From positions 1-30,274 of the forward strand of contig SMYQ01000070.1 in the NCBI GenBank assembly GCA_007050885.1: a stretch of DNA of 30,274 nucleotides, written 5' to 3'. The notes below the pieces were generated by a model, which saw only the letters and a program-made list of their open reading frames with translations, did no database searches and was not told where the DNA came from. A program made the translations under genes and the position numbers. Source of the stretch: Candidatus Bathyarchaeota archaeon (GTDB lineage Archaea > Thermoproteota > Bathyarchaeia > 40CM-2-53-6 > RBG-13-38-9). This document shows positions 3,607 through 27,875 of the stretch, one piece after another (within the stretch, counting starts at the first letter, position 1; each line of letters begins with the position of its first letter).

Positions 3607-3692
3607 AGTTAGTTTAACCTAATTTGGAATATAGATATTTTTTCTGACTTTCATAATCAATGCTCGAAAAAATAGATTTGCTAAGACTTTAA

Positions 3693-3700
3693 TTTATACC
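3693..3700 (+). promoter_or_regulatory. TATA-like box for the aldolase-Fae gene
   Basis: TTTATACC, close to the archaeal box A consensus, is centred about 35 bases before the ATG at 3732. Initiation 25 bases downstream would leave a leader of about 10 bases, which fits the weak ribosome site seen before this start. Confidence 0.45.
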
Positions 3701-3731: not shown

Positions 3732-5219
3732 ATGGTTTTCAAACCCAAAGGAGTAATGCCAGCGCTTGTCACACCACTTACCGATGATGGAAATAAAATT
3801 GATAAATCCCGTATAAAGACCCTTGTTGATTCAGTTATTGATGGCGGAGTATCAGCACTAGTACCATGTGGGACTACAGGAGAGTTTCAAAATCTCTCAA
3901 TAAACGAGAGAAAGATTACAATTGAAACCGTCATCGATCATACCAATGGTCGAGTCCCAGTAATCGCTGCAACAGGACATAGCAGTACCAAGACCACCAT
4001 AGAACTTACTCAACACGCAAAAGATGTTGGTGCTGAAGCCGCATTAGTAGTTACACCTTATTACCATAAACCTATGGACAGGGGAATCTACGAACATTAC
4101 AGAACTCTAGCTGAAGCAGTCGATCTACCAATAATTCTATACAATATTCCACAAGCAACAGGAGTCAATCTCAGCTGGCAAATGGTTGAAGATCTAGTTG
4201 AAATACCAAATATTATCGGTTTGAAGGACAGTAGCGGGGAACTCAAATACATGCTTAGTGTCCTTGAGAAGACTGGTACAAAATTATCAGTCTTATGTGG
4301 ACATGACGAAGTAGTTCTACCTGCTCTAGCCTCAGGCGCCTCAGGCATGATACTTGCAAGCGCAAACATCATACCAGATATTTGGGTTGAACTCTACAAA
4401 TCAGTAAACAAAAGGGATCTAGAAAAAGCTCGAAATACTCAACTTAGAATTCAAAAAATAACTAGGATTATTGCTAAAAGCGGTCCAGTTGGAGCAAAGG
4501 CAGCACTTAACATGTTAGGAATCAAAGTAGGTCCAGTTAGACTCCCCTTGTCCATTGGAGGCGAATTGACCTATGAAGAATTCGAGGAACTCAGAATTGA
4601 TCTTGAGAAAATTGGTAAATTAGAAAAGAAAATTATCAAACCATTTAGACTTACAACAAAAAGATCAATTGGTAAGAAGCTTGCACCAACTGGTTTAGAT
4701 GATCAAATCATAAAAAACCTCAAACTAAAGATTGGCGAATCACTTGCCGGTTCAGGATCCGAGGTTGCCCACGTCGAGATCATGATAGGTTTAAGGGAGG
4801 GCCCATTGGGTGAAGCATTCGCAAAAGCTAAAAGTACTCCCTCAGCTGGTCACGAACCCTTACTAGCAATACTAGAACCGAATTTAGCTGTTAAACCTAC
4901 TACAATGATCATTCCAACCGTTACGATAAAGAGCATGAGACAAGCCAGCATGGTTTATGGTCCTGCACAATCAGCTGCTGCAAAAGCAGTGATTGACAGT
5001 GTTAAAGATAGAACTCTTCCAGAGAAATATGTGGATGATCTAATAATAATCGCAAATGTCTTCGTTCATCCATCAGCAGTGGACAGAAAACGTGTCTACA
5101 TCAATAACTATAAAGCAACAAGACATGCTATCCGAAGAGCAATTGAAGGTAGACCGAAGATTGATGATCTTCTGAAATATAGCGAGATGTCGAAACATCC
5201 GTTTAGATATACACCCTAA
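3732..5219 (+). CDS. DapA/NAL-family class I aldolase fused to a formaldehyde-activating enzyme (Fae) domain
   Basis: 495 residues in two domains. Residues 1 to about 295 are a DapA/N-acetylneuraminate lyase-type barrel: GTTGE at 47-51, PYY at 109-111, Tyr137 in YNIP, and the Schiff-base Lys165 in GLKDSSG. The Arg that binds aspartate semialdehyde in true dihydrodipicolinate synthase (Arg138 in E. coli) is Ala142 here, so another pyruvate-type aldolase activity is more likely. Residues about 325-490 match Fae: IGESLAGSGSEVAHVEI contains the family's conserved active-site His (His347), followed by APN-like EPNLAVKPTTM, YGPAQ, VFVH and a C-terminal KHPF. Fae condenses formaldehyde with tetrahydromethanopterin. 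The fusion suggests an aldolase that releases or consumes a C1 aldehyde which Fae handles; the substrate is inferred. No frame disruption joins the domains. Confidence 0.9.
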   Translation: MVFKPKGVMPALVTPLTDDGNKIDKSRIKTLVDSVIDGGVSALVPCGTTGEFQNLSINERKITIETVIDHTNGRVPVIAATGHSSTKTTIELTQHAKDVGAEAALVVTPYYHKPMDRGIYEHYRTLAEAVDLPIILYNIPQATGVNLSWQMVEDLVEIPNIIGLKDSSGELKYMLSVLEKTGTKLSVLCGHDEVVLPALASGASGMILASANIIPDIWVELYKSVNKRDLEKARNTQLRIQKITRIIAKSGPVGAKAALNMLGIKVGPVRLPLSIGGELTYEEFEELRIDLEKIGKLEKKIIKPFRLTTKRSIGKKLAPTGLDDQIIKNLKLKIGESLAGSGSEVAHVEIMIGLREGPLGEAFAKAKSTPSAGHEPLLAILEPNLAVKPTTMIIPTVTIKSMRQASMVYGPAQSAAAKAVIDSVKDRTLPEKYVDDLIIIANVFVHPSAVDRKRVYINNYKATRHAIRRAIEGRPKIDDLLKYSEMSKHPFRYTP

Positions 5220-7110: not shown

Positions 7111-8514
7111 TCATTTTACTTTATTAATTCTATCCAGTTGGGAATGGATTGCCTTGATAGTCTCTGAAACATCGTTCTCAGCGACAACCAATATTATTTG
7201 GGAAGTATGTGGAGCAAATATACCTCGTTTGATGTTGATATGTGGAATTGAACCTATAGCCACTGAGGCAACGCCAGGAGAAACTCTCATTTTATCACCA
7301 ATTAGTGTGACGATTCCCAGATCATATTCTACACTCATCTTGGCATCAAAGGATCTAAGTTGATATTCATGTTTCCTTATGAAATCAGCGTCAAGGATTA
7401 AGAAAGATCTTATGACATTACCAGTACCTACAACTTCTATACCCAGATCAATAAAATCATCATATCCTTCCCAGAGTCTGAGACAATCTTCAAGCGACCG
7501 ACTTTTCTCACTACTCATTGTAATAATTGCACAATTCTTTAATCCGGTAACACACTTGACGATTTGAGGATTAGGATCCTCTTTTTGGATCATTGCTTCA
7601 AGCCCGAGATCTTCCAATGTTGCGATCTTTATTGATAAATTATTTGACATAGCCAGTCTCACAGCAGCATTCTGTATTATTTTCATTCCAGATACAGTAG
7701 CCCTAGAAGCTTCATTATACGTCATTACTTGAACTCTCTGTAAAGGTTGGTCTTGCACGATTGCTGGATCTGCACTTTGAACAGGTGTTTCTTTAAGCAG
7801 TATCGTCTCTACTTCGAAGTAATCTCTTAAGAGACAGGATAGAAATACCGCAGTCAGGTCGGACCCTCCTCTTCCCAAGAGCGTTTCTAAATTATCGTGA
7901 GTTAAACCCAAGAAACCAGCGATAGAGACTACCTTGCCATCTTCAAGTAAACTGATAAGATTCTTTATCGATCTACGGCTTGACAAAATATCTGGCGTTG
8001 CGGACTCGAATTTGTCATCTGTAATGATTGGCCAATCCGATTTTTTCAAATGTAAAGAGTCAAAGTCATTCGATCGTAGAATATAACTCATCAGAGCCGA
8101 AGTTGGCAGTTCGCCACCACTTGTTAAAATTCTAGCTTTGATTGACCCTTCGAAACGTTTTTCGATCTTCTGGATAGCATCCTGTACAACTATTTTATAT
8201 TTATCAAGTTCTTTTTCAAATTCTTTGAGTAGGTCTTTACGCACATGATCCGATGCTAGTCCTAAATATGAACCGAATACAAAATCTAGACTATGTGTTC
8301 TACCTCGATAATCTTGGCCGCGAGCTTTAGCCTCACCTATCGCTTGAAGCCTATCTGTAAATCCTTTGGGAGCTGAAACAACAACTATCGGTCCAAAATT
8401 TTTAGCTTGTTTAATTTTGGATATACGTTTGATAATTAGAGGAATATTTGCACCAGATAAATCAATAAGGCTTCCACCAAACTTTAGAACAGCCGAACTC
8501 TTTAGTTGGGTCAA
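7111..8514 (-). CDS. Aspartate kinase (aspartokinase)
   Basis: 467 residues. The amino acid kinase domain begins VLKFGGSLID (KFGGS at 11-15), the nucleotide/aspartate site hallmark. It continues with SGGE (132-135), the family's SxGE motif, and GRGGSD at 214-219. The C-terminal 130 or so residues have the length and pattern of a pair of ACT regulatory domains (PGVASVAIGSIPHINIKRG), so feedback control by an end product such as threonine or lysine is likely. It phosphorylates aspartate, the first step to aspartate semialdehyde, homoserine and, through the DUF39 enzyme at 472-1971, homocysteine. Monofunctional: no homoserine dehydrogenase domain. Confidence 0.93.
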   Translation of the reverse strand: MTQLKSSAVLKFGGSLIDLSGANIPLIIKRISKIKQAKNFGPIVVVSAPKGFTDRLQAIGEAKARGQDYRGRTHSLDFVFGSYLGLASDHVRKDLLKEFEKELDKYKIVVQDAIQKIEKRFEGSIKARILTSGGELPTSALMSYILRSNDFDSLHLKKSDWPIITDDKFESATPDILSSRRSIKNLISLLEDGKVVSIAGFLGLTHDNLETLLGRGGSDLTAVFLSCLLRDYFEVETILLKETPVQSADPAIVQDQPLQRVQVMTYNEASRATVSGMKIIQNAAVRLAMSNNLSIKIATLEDLGLEAMIQKEDPNPQIVKCVTGLKNCAIITMSSEKSRSLEDCLRLWEGYDDFIDLGIEVVGTGNVIRSFLILDADFIRKHEYQLRSFDAKMSVEYDLGIVTLIGDKMRVSPGVASVAIGSIPHINIKRGIFAPHTSQIILVVAENDVSETIKAIHSQLDRINKVK

Positions 8515-23930: not shown

Positions 23931-24560
23931 TTGACTGAAGAAAAGAAACCCGAGAAAAAAGGCGTTTCAAGGCGAGGATTCATTCAAGGAGCAGTAGCAG
24001 GACTTGTCGTGGGAGCAGCCGCAACATACGGCGCAACCACAATGATGCAACCAACAACACCAGGACCAACACCAACAACCCCGACAGGAGAAGTAGTCGG
24101 TCCAGCAGAATCTCAAACGATCACAATGACGATAAACGGTGTCACTGTTAATAAGAGTGTCAAAGCACGATGGACACTACAAAAATATATCCGTGACATT
24201 GTCGGACTCAGGGGAACACCTGAAGCATGCGATAACGGTGGATGTGGAAATTGCACCGTTCTGGTGAATGGAAAACCCATTCTTTCTTGTAGCATGCTAG
24301 CTATGGATTGCGCTGGAGCAGACATAACCACGATAGAAGGTTTAGCATCAGGAGGCACACTATCATCAATACAGCAATCATTCATCAATAATACTGCTTT
24401 TCAGTGTGGAGGCTGCACACCAGGATTTATTTTGTGTGGAAAAGCACTGAAAGATAAGAAATCTAGTCCATCTGAAGATGAGGTTAGAGAAGCTGTATCT
24501 GGAGTCCTATGCCGTTGTGGAACGTATGAAAGAGTAGTAAAAGCGATTATGGAGGCATGA
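23931..24560 (+). CDS. Molybdenum hydroxylase, [2Fe-2S] subunit with Tat signal (PaoA-like)
   Basis: 209 residues. The N-terminus has a twin-arginine motif (VSRRGFIQG, residues about 12-20) followed by a small-residue hydrophobic stretch, so the folded enzyme is likely exported. After a Thr/Pro linker come the plant-type cluster motif (CDNGGCGNC, later Cys in PILSC) and the second cluster domain (CGGCTPGFILC and CRCGTY), as in xanthine dehydrogenase family small subunits. It passes electrons from the Mo centre to FAD. E. coli PaoA also carries a Tat signal. First gene of a three-gene operon; the start is TTG with GAGGAAA upstream. Confidence 0.93.
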   Translation: MTEEKKPEKKGVSRRGFIQGAVAGLVVGAAATYGATTMMQPTTPGPTPTTPTGEVVGPAESQTITMTINGVTVNKSVKARWTLQKYIRDIVGLRGTPEACDNGGCGNCTVLVNGKPILSCSMLAMDCAGADITTIEGLASGGTLSSIQQSFINNTAFQCGGCTPGFILCGKALKDKKSSPSEDEVREAVSGVLCRCGTYERVVKAIMEA

Positions 24561-24565
24561 TATAA

Positions 24566-26986
24566 ATGGGAACACGTTTTGTTGGAAGTCTTGAACCCTT
24601 CAAGGATAAGATGGCAGAACAAGGTTATTCTGGCTTACGATATATGGCTCAAAGAGAATTAGACGTCAATGGAACAGCTATAGTGACAGGCAACGTAAAA
24701 TACACATCCAGCGTACAGGTACCAGGTTGCCTTTACACAAGATTTGTAAGAAGTCCCTATGGTAGCGCAAAAATCACAAGCTTGGACACTAGTAAAGCTG
24801 AAAATATGCCTGGTGTAGTCAGGGTTTTTACTGCAAGTGATCCTGAATTCGCAGGAAACATGTACTTAGGCGACATACCTCTTCTGACTGAAGGTGAGGT
24901 ATTCTTCGATACCCAGCCAATAGTAATGATAGTTGCCGAGACCCAAGAAGCAGCCGACGACGCGGCACACGCAGTAGAAGTCAAATATGAAGTAATGGAT
25001 GCTCTGACCGATCCAGTAGCAGCTCGTGATTTGAATCCACCTAAAGTAACTCATACACCGAGATTGATCACTCCACCTTTCGAAGCTGAAAGACCAAACG
25101 TAATCAATTGCTTCTATGTCAGAAGCGGTGACATTGAGCAAGGATTCGCAGATGCAGATGTTATAATCGAAGAAGAGATTACAACAGAAGCAGATCCACA
25201 CGGATACCTAGTACCAATAACTGCAACAGCCCAGCCACACGGTGACGGAACAATGACCCTATGGGTCGACGTCCAGAACATACACCCAGTCCCATGGCCA
25301 ACAGCAGCCGCAGCAGCAGGAATACCCTTAGACAAACTCAATGTAATAGGCCCTGACGTTTGTGCTGGCGGTTTCGGAGGAAAGAACTGCGGTACACCAG
25401 GACCATATGCTGCAATAGCTGCAAAAGCAACAGGAAGACCTGTAAGAGTAGCCTTTGACGATAACCGTTTACAACATGCAACAAGACCATGGAACGTATG
25501 CCAAATCAAAACAGGAGCCAAAAATGATGGAAAATTCACAGCAATCGACGTAACATTCAACATTGGTACACCATATGCAGTATTCAGCCTCTCTGTCATG
25601 GAAAGAGCAAGAGAAGCAATAACCTGCACATACCATTGGGGTCACAGAGACCTATACGAAAGACCAAACGTCATGTTCACCGCATACGACTCATACACTA
25701 ATCATGTTGAGACGATGTCCTACAGAGGCTTTGGAGTCTTAGAATCAACATTTCCAATGGAAACAATGATCAACATGTTAGCTGAAAAACTTGGCATGGA
25801 CAGACTTGAGATAAGACTATTGAACCTCACCAAAGAAGGTGAACGCAGCGCCCAGAACGAGATCATCAGAAGCATGGGAGCAGAAGGAGTCCAGAAGAAA
25901 GTCTATGAAATGATGCAAGCATGGGGACCCAAACCATCCGTCCCAGAACCATGGGTCGTAGGAAGAGGATTCTCAGGAGCTAACAAATACTCACAAGGAG
26001 ACATGGTACACAACCTAATATTCCTCAAGCTAAGAGCAAATGGAATCGTAGACATCATAGCTGACTCCATGGACATAGGACAAGGCATGAACACCGTCTC
26101 AAGACAGATTACCGCAGAAGGAATGAATATACCCATAGAAAATGTACGAAAAGTAGAAGTCAACACAGCATATGTCCCATGGACAAGCGACTCATTCTCC
26201 AGCTCAGCAACAGACGATATGGGCCAAGCCGTAGTCGATGCATGCAAGAATGCTAAAGCAAAATTATTTGAATGGGCTGCACCAAAACTCGGCACCAGCG
26301 TATCAAACCTAGAGACCGTCGACGGCATGATACAAGTAAAGGGCAACCCTGAGAGCGCAATATCATGGGGAGATGCAATGGCACCACGTCCACACACAAT
26401 CGTTCAAGGTTCAAAGAACTGGCCTGACGGCGCACCAAACGACTACGATGGACCAGGAACAAACGACTACTACACAGGACAAGCACTAGGACCATACTTC
26501 AGACTAATCATGCACATGAACTTCATGGCACAAGCTTATGAAGTCATGATAAACAAGGAGACAGGCGAAATGAAGATTACCAAATGGATTGGTGGAAACG
26601 ACGCACTACCTGTGAATCCAACCTTGCTAGAAGGACAGATCATAGGTGGAGGACTATACCACGGTGGATCAAACGGAATGTATGAAGAAAACATCTATGA
26701 CAATGGATCTATAATGACCAAGACATTAGTCGACTGGAAGATGCCAACGATACTTGACTTTCCAAAAATGGATGACATACACACCGCAGTAGTACCAGTC
26801 TGGGGCGAATACTTTGGAACACCAAGAGTAAACTGTCCATTCGGAGCAAAAGGTGTCGGAGAAGGAGTAGACTGCGCATCACCATCAGGACTAGTAAGCG
26901 CAATACACGATGCCATTGGGGTCTGGATCAAAAATGCACCAGCTGCTTCACAGAAGAGAATACTGGAGGCCTTAGGGAAGGCATAA
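24566..26986 (+). CDS. Molybdenum hydroxylase, Mo-cofactor subunit (xanthine dehydrogenase family)
   Basis: 806 residues. GGFGGK (268-273), SYRGFG (385-390), MDIGQGMNT (502-510) and KGVGEGVDCASPSG (762-775) are the cofactor and active-site motifs. Glu766 in GVGEG is the expected base that activates the Mo-bound hydroxyl. The SYRGFG loop has no Cys, so this is not the carbon monoxide dehydrogenase type. The family hydroxylates aldehydes, aromatic acyl-CoAs or N-heterocycles; the substrate cannot be told here. It has no signal peptide and would be exported by hitchhiking on the Tat-bearing small subunit. It starts 3 bases after the small-subunit stop codon. Codon use is biased to AAC, GAC, GGA, CCA, unlike nearby genes, suggesting high expression. 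Confidence 0.93.
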   Translation: MGTRFVGSLEPFKDKMAEQGYSGLRYMAQRELDVNGTAIVTGNVKYTSSVQVPGCLYTRFVRSPYGSAKITSLDTSKAENMPGVVRVFTASDPEFAGNMYLGDIPLLTEGEVFFDTQPIVMIVAETQEAADDAAHAVEVKYEVMDALTDPVAARDLNPPKVTHTPRLITPPFEAERPNVINCFYVRSGDIEQGFADADVIIEEEITTEADPHGYLVPITATAQPHGDGTMTLWVDVQNIHPVPWPTAAAAAGIPLDKLNVIGPDVCAGGFGGKNCGTPGPYAAIAAKATGRPVRVAFDDNRLQHATRPWNVCQIKTGAKNDGKFTAIDVTFNIGTPYAVFSLSVMERAREAITCTYHWGHRDLYERPNVMFTAYDSYTNHVETMSYRGFGVLESTFPMETMINMLAEKLGMDRLEIRLLNLTKEGERSAQNEIIRSMGAEGVQKKVYEMMQAWGPKPSVPEPWVVGRGFSGANKYSQGDMVHNLIFLKLRANGIVDIIADSMDIGQGMNTVSRQITAEGMNIPIENVRKVEVNTAYVPWTSDSFSSSATDDMGQAVVDACKNAKAKLFEWAAPKLGTSVSNLETVDGMIQVKGNPESAISWGDAMAPRPHTIVQGSKNWPDGAPNDYDGPGTNDYYTGQALGPYFRLIMHMNFMAQAYEVMINKETGEMKITKWIGGNDALPVNPTLLEGQIIGGGLYHGGSNGMYEENIYDNGSIMTKTLVDWKMPTILDFPKMDDIHTAVVPVWGEYFGTPRVNCPFGAKGVGEGVDCASPSGLVSAIHDAIGVWIKNAPAASQKRILEALGKA

Positions 26987-27002
26987 AGGAGGATAAAGAA
27001 AA

Positions 27003-27875
27003 ATGAGAGCTTTAGCACCAGTAAAATACTACACAGCAACCTCAGTTAAAGATGCATGCCAAGTACTAAATCAGGCCGCAGGAAAAGGCAAAGTCTTAGC
27101 CGGCGGATCCGACATAGTAGACTGGCTAAGAAAGAGATACATGCCTACACCAGAAGTTCTAGTCGACATTAAGAAACTAGGTCTCGATACAATCGAAACT
27201 AAAGAAGATGGAGTTCACATCGGAGCTACAGCCAAGCTGTCTGATCTAGGTACAGCAGGCATACCAATGCTCGAAGAAGCTGCAAGAAAAGGTCCATCAC
27301 CTCAACTACAGAACCAAGCAACAGTCGGCGGTAACGTATGCCAAAACGTATGGTGTTGGTACTATCGACTGAAAGATTGGAACTGTTACAGAAAAGGTGG
27401 ACCCATATGTTTCGTCCCTGGTGGCCGAAACCAGTTCCACGCAATAATGGAGCAGAAAGTATGCAATGCAATTGTTCCTGGAGACGTATCCGTCGCTTTG
27501 ACAGCCTTAAACGCTAATGTAAACATCGCTGGAATGGAAGGATCAAGAACTGTACCTATGAAAGATTTCTATATAGTCTTAGGTAACGTCTTGAAACCAG
27601 ACGAAATCATAACAGACATAGTCGTACCTGAGAAACCAAGCAAGGGAGTATTCCTTAAAAGCAGAACCAGAGGAGCAATCGATTTTGCTACTGCAAGCGT
27701 TGCAGCTGCAACAACTAGTCAAGGTACAACTGTAGCCCTTGGCGGAGTAGCACCAATAATACCATCCGGTACACCTGACGAAATAAAATCAGCAGTAAAC
27801 AACGCAACACCACTTAGCGAGAACAGATACAAGATAAACATAGTCAAGCATCTGCTTAGTCAAGCAGGTGTTTGA
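27003..27875 (+). CDS. Molybdenum hydroxylase, FAD subunit with Cys-rich [4Fe-4S] insertion (PaoB/HcrB-like)
   Basis: 290 residues. VLAGGSDIVDWLRKR is the FAD pyrophosphate loop, and NQATVGGNVCQN is the second FAD motif. Between them and the middle of the protein lies a Cys-rich segment: Cys113, Cys118, Cys128, Cys136 and Cys154 (RLKDWNCYRKGGPICFVPGG...HAIMEQKVC). E. coli PaoB and 4-hydroxybenzoyl-CoA reductase beta subunit carry an extra [4Fe-4S] cluster in an insertion at this place, with a similar Cys spacing and the 'HAI' stretch. A GGAGG ribosome site precedes the ATG by about 9 bases. A terminator overlaps the stop codon, so the operon ends here. Confidence 0.9.
   Translation: MRALAPVKYYTATSVKDACQVLNQAAGKGKVLAGGSDIVDWLRKRYMPTPEVLVDIKKLGLDTIETKEDGVHIGATAKLSDLGTAGIPMLEEAARKGPSPQLQNQATVGGNVCQNVWCWYYRLKDWNCYRKGGPICFVPGGRNQFHAIMEQKVCNAIVPGDVSVALTALNANVNIAGMEGSRTVPMKDFYIVLGNVLKPDEIITDIVVPEKPSKGVFLKSRTRGAIDFATASVAAATTSQGTTVALGGVAPIIPSGTPDEIKSAVNNATPLSENRYKINIVKHLLSQAGV

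Follow-up and report, generated by a model that had tools for sequence, protein, structure and literature searches.

A widespread archaeal fusion of a pyruvate aldolase with formaldehyde-activating enzyme, and its possible part in an aspartate-independent route to homoserine and threonine

The stretch of DNA under study, here called the window, comprises 30,274 nucleotides of contig SMYQ01000070.1 and is assigned to a Candidatus Bathyarchaeota archaeon. As claimed in an earlier note made from its sequence, it holds a single reading frame in which a class I aldolase is joined to a formaldehyde-activating enzyme (Fae). The features relevant to this gene, all on the forward strand, are the following:

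3687..3698, + strand: putative TATA-like stretch CTTTAATTTATA lying 5' of the fusion gene, proposed from its letters only
3732..5219, + strand: aldolase-Fae fusion gene, an ATG-started open frame of 495 codons encoding 495 aa (Pfam and NCBIfam domains)
3744..4562, + strand: class I pyruvate-aldolase domain of the DHDPS/NAL family, residues 5-277
4155..4157, + strand: codon of Ala142, at the presumed site of the DHDPS substrate Arg (91-row fusion alignment)
4224..4226, + strand: codon of Lys165, the Schiff-base lysine (invariant, 91/91)
4635..4718, + strand: flexible linker, residues 302-329 (pLDDT <50 in the predicted model)
4731..5204, + strand: Fae domain, residues 334-491 (PF08714, 198.3 bits; TIGR03126, 205.5 bits)
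4770..4772, + strand: codon of His347, presumed active-site His of Fae (invariant, 91/91; aligned with 1y5y)

Both domains lie far above their cut-offs. A Pfam scan of the window protein placed the DHDPS match (265.4 bits, cut-off 22.1) at residues 5-277 and the Fae match (cut-off 27) at residues 334-491, the latter covering 158 of the 159 profile positions, so that the Fae domain is as complete as had been claimed; the corresponding NCBIfam model was also passed (cut-off 118). The same scan revealed no Hps (OMPdecase) domain in the protein. Among the NCBIfam aldolase models, the dapA equivalog TIGR00674 was passed (256.1 bits, cut-off 206.15), and the models for NAL and KDG aldolase gave scores under their cut-offs. 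The top structure matches were DHDPS enzymes, this structure-based comparison being confined to the aldolase half, while the Fae half was compared by sequence. Close relatives of the window protein are present at full length at three loci (L001-L003).

Three other parts of the window may be mentioned. At 83-1971 a homocysteine-biosynthesis protein (PF01837 with CBS domains) stands beside a NIL/ferredoxin protein; this pair, separated from the fusion by two genes, presumably uses aspartate semialdehyde in sulfur transfer. A divergent aspartate-kinase-like protein, scoring under the NCBIfam aspartate kinase cut-offs, is encoded at 7111-8514. Finally, a three-gene molybdopterin hydroxylase set resembling 4-hydroxybenzoyl-CoA reductase or xanthine dehydrogenase, under the equivalog cut-offs, was found at 23931-27875, and its iron-sulfur subunit starts with a twin-arginine-like SRRGF signal.

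The active sites were examined in an alignment of 91 members, consisting of the window protein and 90 homologues chosen from 240 listed. In the aldolase half, K165, Y137, Y111, G47, T49, G50, E51, D192 and E193 are invariant in all 91 fusions, and the same holds for H347, Y409, Q413 and H446 in the Fae half. The residues named in the earlier note, i.e. Lys165, Tyr137, the GTTGE motif (residues 47-51), Ala142 and His347, are all in place, and in the solved Fae structure 1y5y the residue aligned to His347 is the EVAH-motif His, which we take to be the active-site His. As the catalytic residues are invariant in the aligned fusions, both halves look active. A further alignment, of 26 rows with the window protein among them, shows the loss of the Fae His only in one copy of a tandem pair in genome G023 (see below).

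Position 142 is taken here to correspond to Arg138 of E. coli DHDPS, the Arg that binds the carboxylate of the semialdehyde, and among the 91 fusions it is occupied by Ala (45), Cys (24), Val (14), Thr (6) or Leu (2). The loss of the substrate Arg, proposed previously for the window protein, therefore extends to every aligned fusion (Arg 0/91), and since Arg never occurs there the aldolase is seemingly not made for aspartate semialdehyde. The small, neutral pocket wall would rather suit a small aldehyde. On the other hand, the GxDE motif (residues 190-193, including D192-E193) presumably resembles the sugar-binding residues of N-acetylneuraminate lyase (NAL), by which likeness a larger aldehyde could be the substrate.

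The fusion was looked for in other archaeal genomes, as the earlier note had suggested. Both Pfam domains were present in 240 of 240 homologues among the matches listed, i.e. the best 120 for the window protein and the best 120 for a distant member. The named homologues among these matches are mostly Bathyarchaeota/Bathyarchaeia, to which the search with the distant member adds Promethearchaeota, Hodarchaeales and Odinarchaeota; a single entry (P0170) is placed under the bacterium Desulfaltia and was taken for a mis-sorted contig. Of 121 sampled genomes of the class, which do not include the window's own, 30 carry the fusion, as 28 near full-length genes and two pieces at contig ends (G004, G047), leaving 91 genomes without it. 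The DapA matches of three genomes were considered as further fusions and rejected: those of G042 and G105 (frames of 721 and 496 aa) and of G079 are ordinary single DapA-like proteins whose frame is extended upstream. The earlier note had also considered that the fusion might occur only here, through an assembly error; instead it is widespread, and its homologues come from several source collections and many assemblies. An assembly or annotation artefact is therefore ruled out by the 240 two-domain homologues listed together with loci from many assemblies, and we give it practically no weight. The fusion is a real and widespread enzyme family with two predicted active sites.

Two of the 30 fusion genomes show altered copies. 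The frame of G119 (L045:2501-3850), counted among the 28 near full-length genes, carries one in-frame TGA in its Fae half; in the same genome ThrB, ThrC, HomDH and aspartate kinase (AK) lie side by side, with ASADH on the same contig. G023 harbors two fusions in tandem, and in the second copy (L063:4702-6099) the Fae half is shortened and its active-site His lost, the aldolase half being kept. A tree of 39 rows resolved into two main groups, A (99/96) and another that unites B with Asgard (100/100); both G023 copies have long branches and fall outside these groups. The window protein groups with those of G001, G002 and G003 (100/100) within sub-group A1 (96/92), while sub-group A2 as a whole is weakly supported (80/41).

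The fusion genomes are poor in two enzymes of the aspartate route to homoserine, a depletion that is a new observation. ASADH (archaeal, E <1e-40) was found in 7/30 fusion genomes compared to 72/91 others (p 6e-8), and HomDH (PF00742) in 8/30, of which six are full, one is a contig-edge piece (G117) and one is truncated (G071), compared to 64/91 others (p 3.5e-5); these Fisher tests treat the genomes as independent, and their p-values are inflated by kinship. With a second HomDH profile, made from 10 Bathyarchaeia HomDHs of which six come from the fusion genomes themselves, matches of at least 48 bits were obtained in 8/30 fusion genomes (again six full, the truncated G071 and the contig-edge G117) and 66/91 others (p 2e-5), matches of 23-37 bits, which occur in many genomes, being counted as other dehydrogenases. 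The two enzymes are both absent from 19/30 fusion genomes and from 11/91 fusion-free ones, and one or both are kept in the remaining 11 fusion genomes, including G002 and G003, which are among the three closest kin of the window. Since the genomes are MAGs lacking completeness values, some of the absences will be assembly gaps; among those of at least 1.5 Mb, HomDH was present in 7/20 fusion genomes and 49/63 others, and ASADH in 6/20 and 55/63, respectively.

Homoserine kinase of the GHMP type (ThrB) was found over its cut-off in 10/30 fusion genomes and 49/91 others, and all ten of these fusion genomes also have threonine synthase (ThrC) over its cut-off. Among the genomes with ThrB, HomDH was present in 3/10 with the fusion versus 42/49 without, and ASADH in 3/10 versus 45/49. 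Six of the ten fusion genomes (G006, G009, G023, G027, G055 and G091) combine ThrB and ThrC with the absence of both HomDH and ASADH; ThrB without either enzyme was also found in two of the 49 fusion-free genomes that have ThrB (G042 and G051). That HomDH and ASADH are often absent while one third of the fusion genomes retain ThrB-ThrC speaks for the synthetic direction in some lineages.

On the fusion tree the absences turn up in two places. The fusion genomes with neither enzyme comprise 8/8 of A2, 8/11 of group B, G001 (A1) and G023, as well as G047, which is not in the tree. Among the near kin of the window in A1, no HomDH or ASADH was found in G001 by profile search, whereas G002 and G003 keep ASADH and have HomDH beside MetX. 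In seven of the eight A2 genomes (G010, G033, G063, G069, G077, G083 and G118) neither MetX nor a GHMP homoserine kinase over cut-off was found. In four of these seven (G010, G033, G077 and G083), frames of 478-499 aa match the threonine-synthase model over cut-off at 209-234 bits, though they may be paralogues; G063, G069 and G118 have no match over cut-off. With no MetX, no such kinase over cut-off, and ThrC matches that are either possibly paralogous or missing, these seven genomes have no established user of homoserine. Overall, MetX was found in 6/30 fusion genomes and 13/91 others.

Gene order was read from chosen loci, which also served for AK; the maps keep the longest of overlapping frames, so that a longer false frame can mask a gene, as happened in L118 and L130. 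Genome G006 lacks both HomDH and ASADH, and there the genes for homoserine kinase (298 bits), threonine synthase (376 bits) and Asn-tRNA ligase come in this order after the fusion (L042). Such a string would be expected if the fusion makes a homoserine precursor; it was encountered in this one case only. At the chosen loci of five fusion genomes (G055, G009, G027, G091 and G053), ThrB-ThrC stands without AK, ASADH or HomDH beside the pair; in G023 the contig stops within ThrC. Fusion-free genomes show the order ThrB-ThrC-AK-ASADH-HomDH in three cases, G032, G120 and G082, the last with just a 93-aa AK-like frame in the place of AK. However, a bare ThrB-ThrC pair was likewise found in five fusion-free genomes (G018, G042, G051, G094 and G105), picked for having no HomDH and two of them at contig ends, and this layout therefore marks the loss of HomDH rather than the fusion.

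A possible HomDH remnant and a truncated HomDH were seen along the way. In the fusion-free genome G042, a stretch resembling the HomDH C-terminus (32.9 bits) lies beside ThrC at C27:30806-30934 (L132), and looks like another way of losing HomDH. In the fusion genome G071, the truncated HomDH (L117:5650-6390) faces an intact ThrB-ThrC pair.

A recurrent neighbour was a gene of about 430 aa, here called c2. Of 30 loci, taken from 29 genomes and the window, eight have it near the fusion and six directly beside it (L041:9113-10411, L046:4659-5945, L047:11193-12476, L052:4386-5669, L054:10209-11255 and L061:10133-11437). It is divergent from the fusion in four A2 loci and directly 3' of it in two B loci, with a 4-bp overlap in L061. 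The c2 protein has no Pfam or NCBIfam match, sequence searches of the PDB gave nothing at E <0.1 and its predicted fold model is poor (mean pLDDT 42.2); it represents a conserved, large archaeal protein family.

The nearest known design is Fae-Hps, in which Fae also shares a chain with an enzyme that forms or splits a carbon-carbon bond to formaldehyde, and which occurs within this class too, often alongside the fusion in one genome. A separate further Fae place was identified in 20/30 fusion genomes, one of them a fragment, and all eight proteins scanned were Fae-Hps. The reactions of Fae and Fae-Hps are reversible. The two designs differ in that Fae is N-terminal or central in Fae-Hps and C-terminal in the fusion, and in that the partner is an OMPdecase/HUMPS-type barrel in the former and a Schiff-base DHDPS/NAL barrel in the latter; their Fae parts share 43-52% identity. 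In several Fae-Hps proteins of Bathyarchaeia an additional N-terminal stretch precedes Fae, which starts at residue 92-96 (L010:1228-2682, L068:3767-5245, L025:1225-2682, L028:796-2262 and L038:1216-2682); elsewhere it starts at residue 56-58 (L020, L053) or 7-10 (L005, L006, L011, L023). Human HOGA (4-hydroxy-2-oxoglutarate aldolase, 3s5o), another aldolase considered, lacks a Fae domain and releases glyoxylate, not formaldehyde. Mch, a marker of the tetrahydromethanopterin (H4MPT) branch, gave strong matches in 25/30 fusion genomes and a weak piece in G023, compared to 55/91 others in the sample.

The proposed chemistry has an engineered counterpart. According to the available part of a review, the sequence from pyruvate and formaldehyde through 4-hydroxy-2-oxobutanoate (HOB) and homoserine to threonine has been made to work in engineered E. 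coli by means of a promiscuous aldolase, HOB being described as a non-native metabolite of this host (PMC8879981). The synthetic homoserine cycle in the same text (HOB aldolase, HOB aminotransferase, ThrB and ThrC) follows the reaction order proposed here; it is engineered, its aldolase is the promiscuous RhmA, and the part seen names neither Fae nor H4MPT in it (PMC8879981). No title or abstract opening searched named a DHDPS-Fae fusion, most subscription papers and supplementary tables being outside this scope. An archaeal fusion survey names Fae/Hps and Hps-Phi in the portion available, and the terms dapA, dihydrodipicolinate and formaldehyde are absent from its main text (PMC11237513); in similarly partial form, one further paper held nothing related to a DHDPS-Fae fusion (PMC8498564) and another mentioned Fae alone (PMC9723716).

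Taken together, we assign a probability of about 0.5 to the reading that the fusion would be a bifunctional Fae/HOB aldolase which in some lineages replaces the aspartate route to homoserine, its substrate, direction, transamination step and pathway role being inferred. Against this reading count the 11 fusion genomes that keep HomDH, ASADH or both, the 11 fusion-free genomes with neither, among which G042 and G051 nevertheless have ThrB, the seven A2 genomes without an established homoserine user, the TIGR00674 score and the GxDE motif. The main competitor is the same reaction run in reverse, with HOB, derived from homoserine or another source, being cleaved to pyruvate and formaldehyde and Fae loading the C1 unit onto H4MPT. 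This would parallel Fae-Hps, which is thought to work in this way in ribose synthesis and whose fused Fae might catch formaldehyde at once, as suggested in the accessible parts of two papers (PMC5241800, PMC5244752). In the window's lineage homoserine could be in surplus, since G002 and G003 keep HomDH, and a serine/threonine-dehydratase-like gene follows the fusion of G063. Nevertheless, most fusion genomes have no detectable HomDH or ASADH, and so little homoserine to cleave, and ThrB and ThrC are kept in 10/30 of them, which makes this reading rather unlikely. The idea of the earlier note thus holds in part: HOB is probably the most sensible C1-linked substrate, but against its cleavage as a source of C1 units the gene absences favour synthesis in some lineages.

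Other readings change the substrate. The aldolase might act on a sugar acid or larger aldehyde like NAL or KDG aldolase, with Fae scavenging stray formaldehyde or serving another route and the two fused for co-regulation; the missing DHDPS Arg, the NAL and KDG model scores (both under cut-off) and the invariant D192-E193, whose counterparts presumably contact the sugar in NAL, would fit this. It is nonetheless distinctly unlikely, as both sites are intact in 91/91 fusions across Bathyarchaeia and Asgard, suggesting coupled chemistry, and residue 142 is always small or hydrophobic. Ketopantoate synthesis from 2-oxoisovalerate and formaldehyde in place of PanB would use the same C1 chemistry and is in line with the lack of PanB in 14/30 fusion genomes; yet PanB is found in the other 16, including G001, G002 and G003, and in 32/91 fusion-free genomes, and this absence of complementarity led us to reject PanB replacement as a general rule and to consider the idea very improbable. 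Still less credit is due to an ordinary DHDPS bearing a Fae tag, despite the TIGR00674 score, the DHDPS-like top structure matches, the database names and the aspartate-kinase-like gene in the window. The fusion shares with DHDPS (DapA; PF00701/TIGR00674) the fold, Lys165, Tyr137, Tyr111 and the GxTGE motif, but not the substrate Arg (missing in 91/91). DapB is absent from all 30 fusion genomes and present in 28/91 others (p 1.2e-4, again inflated by kinship), making lysine synthesis an unlikely role, and ASADH is found in only 7/30; lysine synthesis was rejected on the lack of Arg at position 142 and of DapB.

In the favoured Fae/HOB aldolase reading, the C-terminal Fae domain would interconvert methylene-H4MPT and formaldehyde, and in the N-terminal Schiff-base aldolase the Lys165 enamine of pyruvate would add reversibly to this formaldehyde to give HOB, the joining of both domains in one chain presumably keeping free formaldehyde low. 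HOB would then be transaminated by an aminotransferase to homoserine, and homoserine converted to threonine via ThrB and ThrC, which would constitute an aspartate-independent route in lineages without the aspartate-semialdehyde route. For group B, and for part of A2, the homoserine bypass is a good hypothesis. In the lineage to which the window belongs we infer the same reaction, but it may run either way there, the aspartate route being retained in G002 and G003. The full proposal, that archaea make homoserine and then threonine from pyruvate and an H4MPT-borne C1 unit via a fused Fae-HOB aldolase, and that several lineages thereby dropped ASADH and HomDH, is put forward tentatively, at slightly under even odds. 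As an enzyme, the fusion most likely acts as an aldolase on pyruvate and formaldehyde in concert with the C1 carrier, in which case it is misnamed in databases.

If the proposal is correct, many archaeal database entries called 4-hydroxy-tetrahydrodipicolinate synthase would carry the wrong name, and a ready-made enzyme would be available for a step that engineers have carried out with a borrowed, promiscuous aldolase. The fusion would also represent a natural reaction, forming a carbon-carbon bond, by which C1 units of the archaeal H4MPT branch are brought into amino acids while aspartate is bypassed, in two large uncultured groups of archaea.
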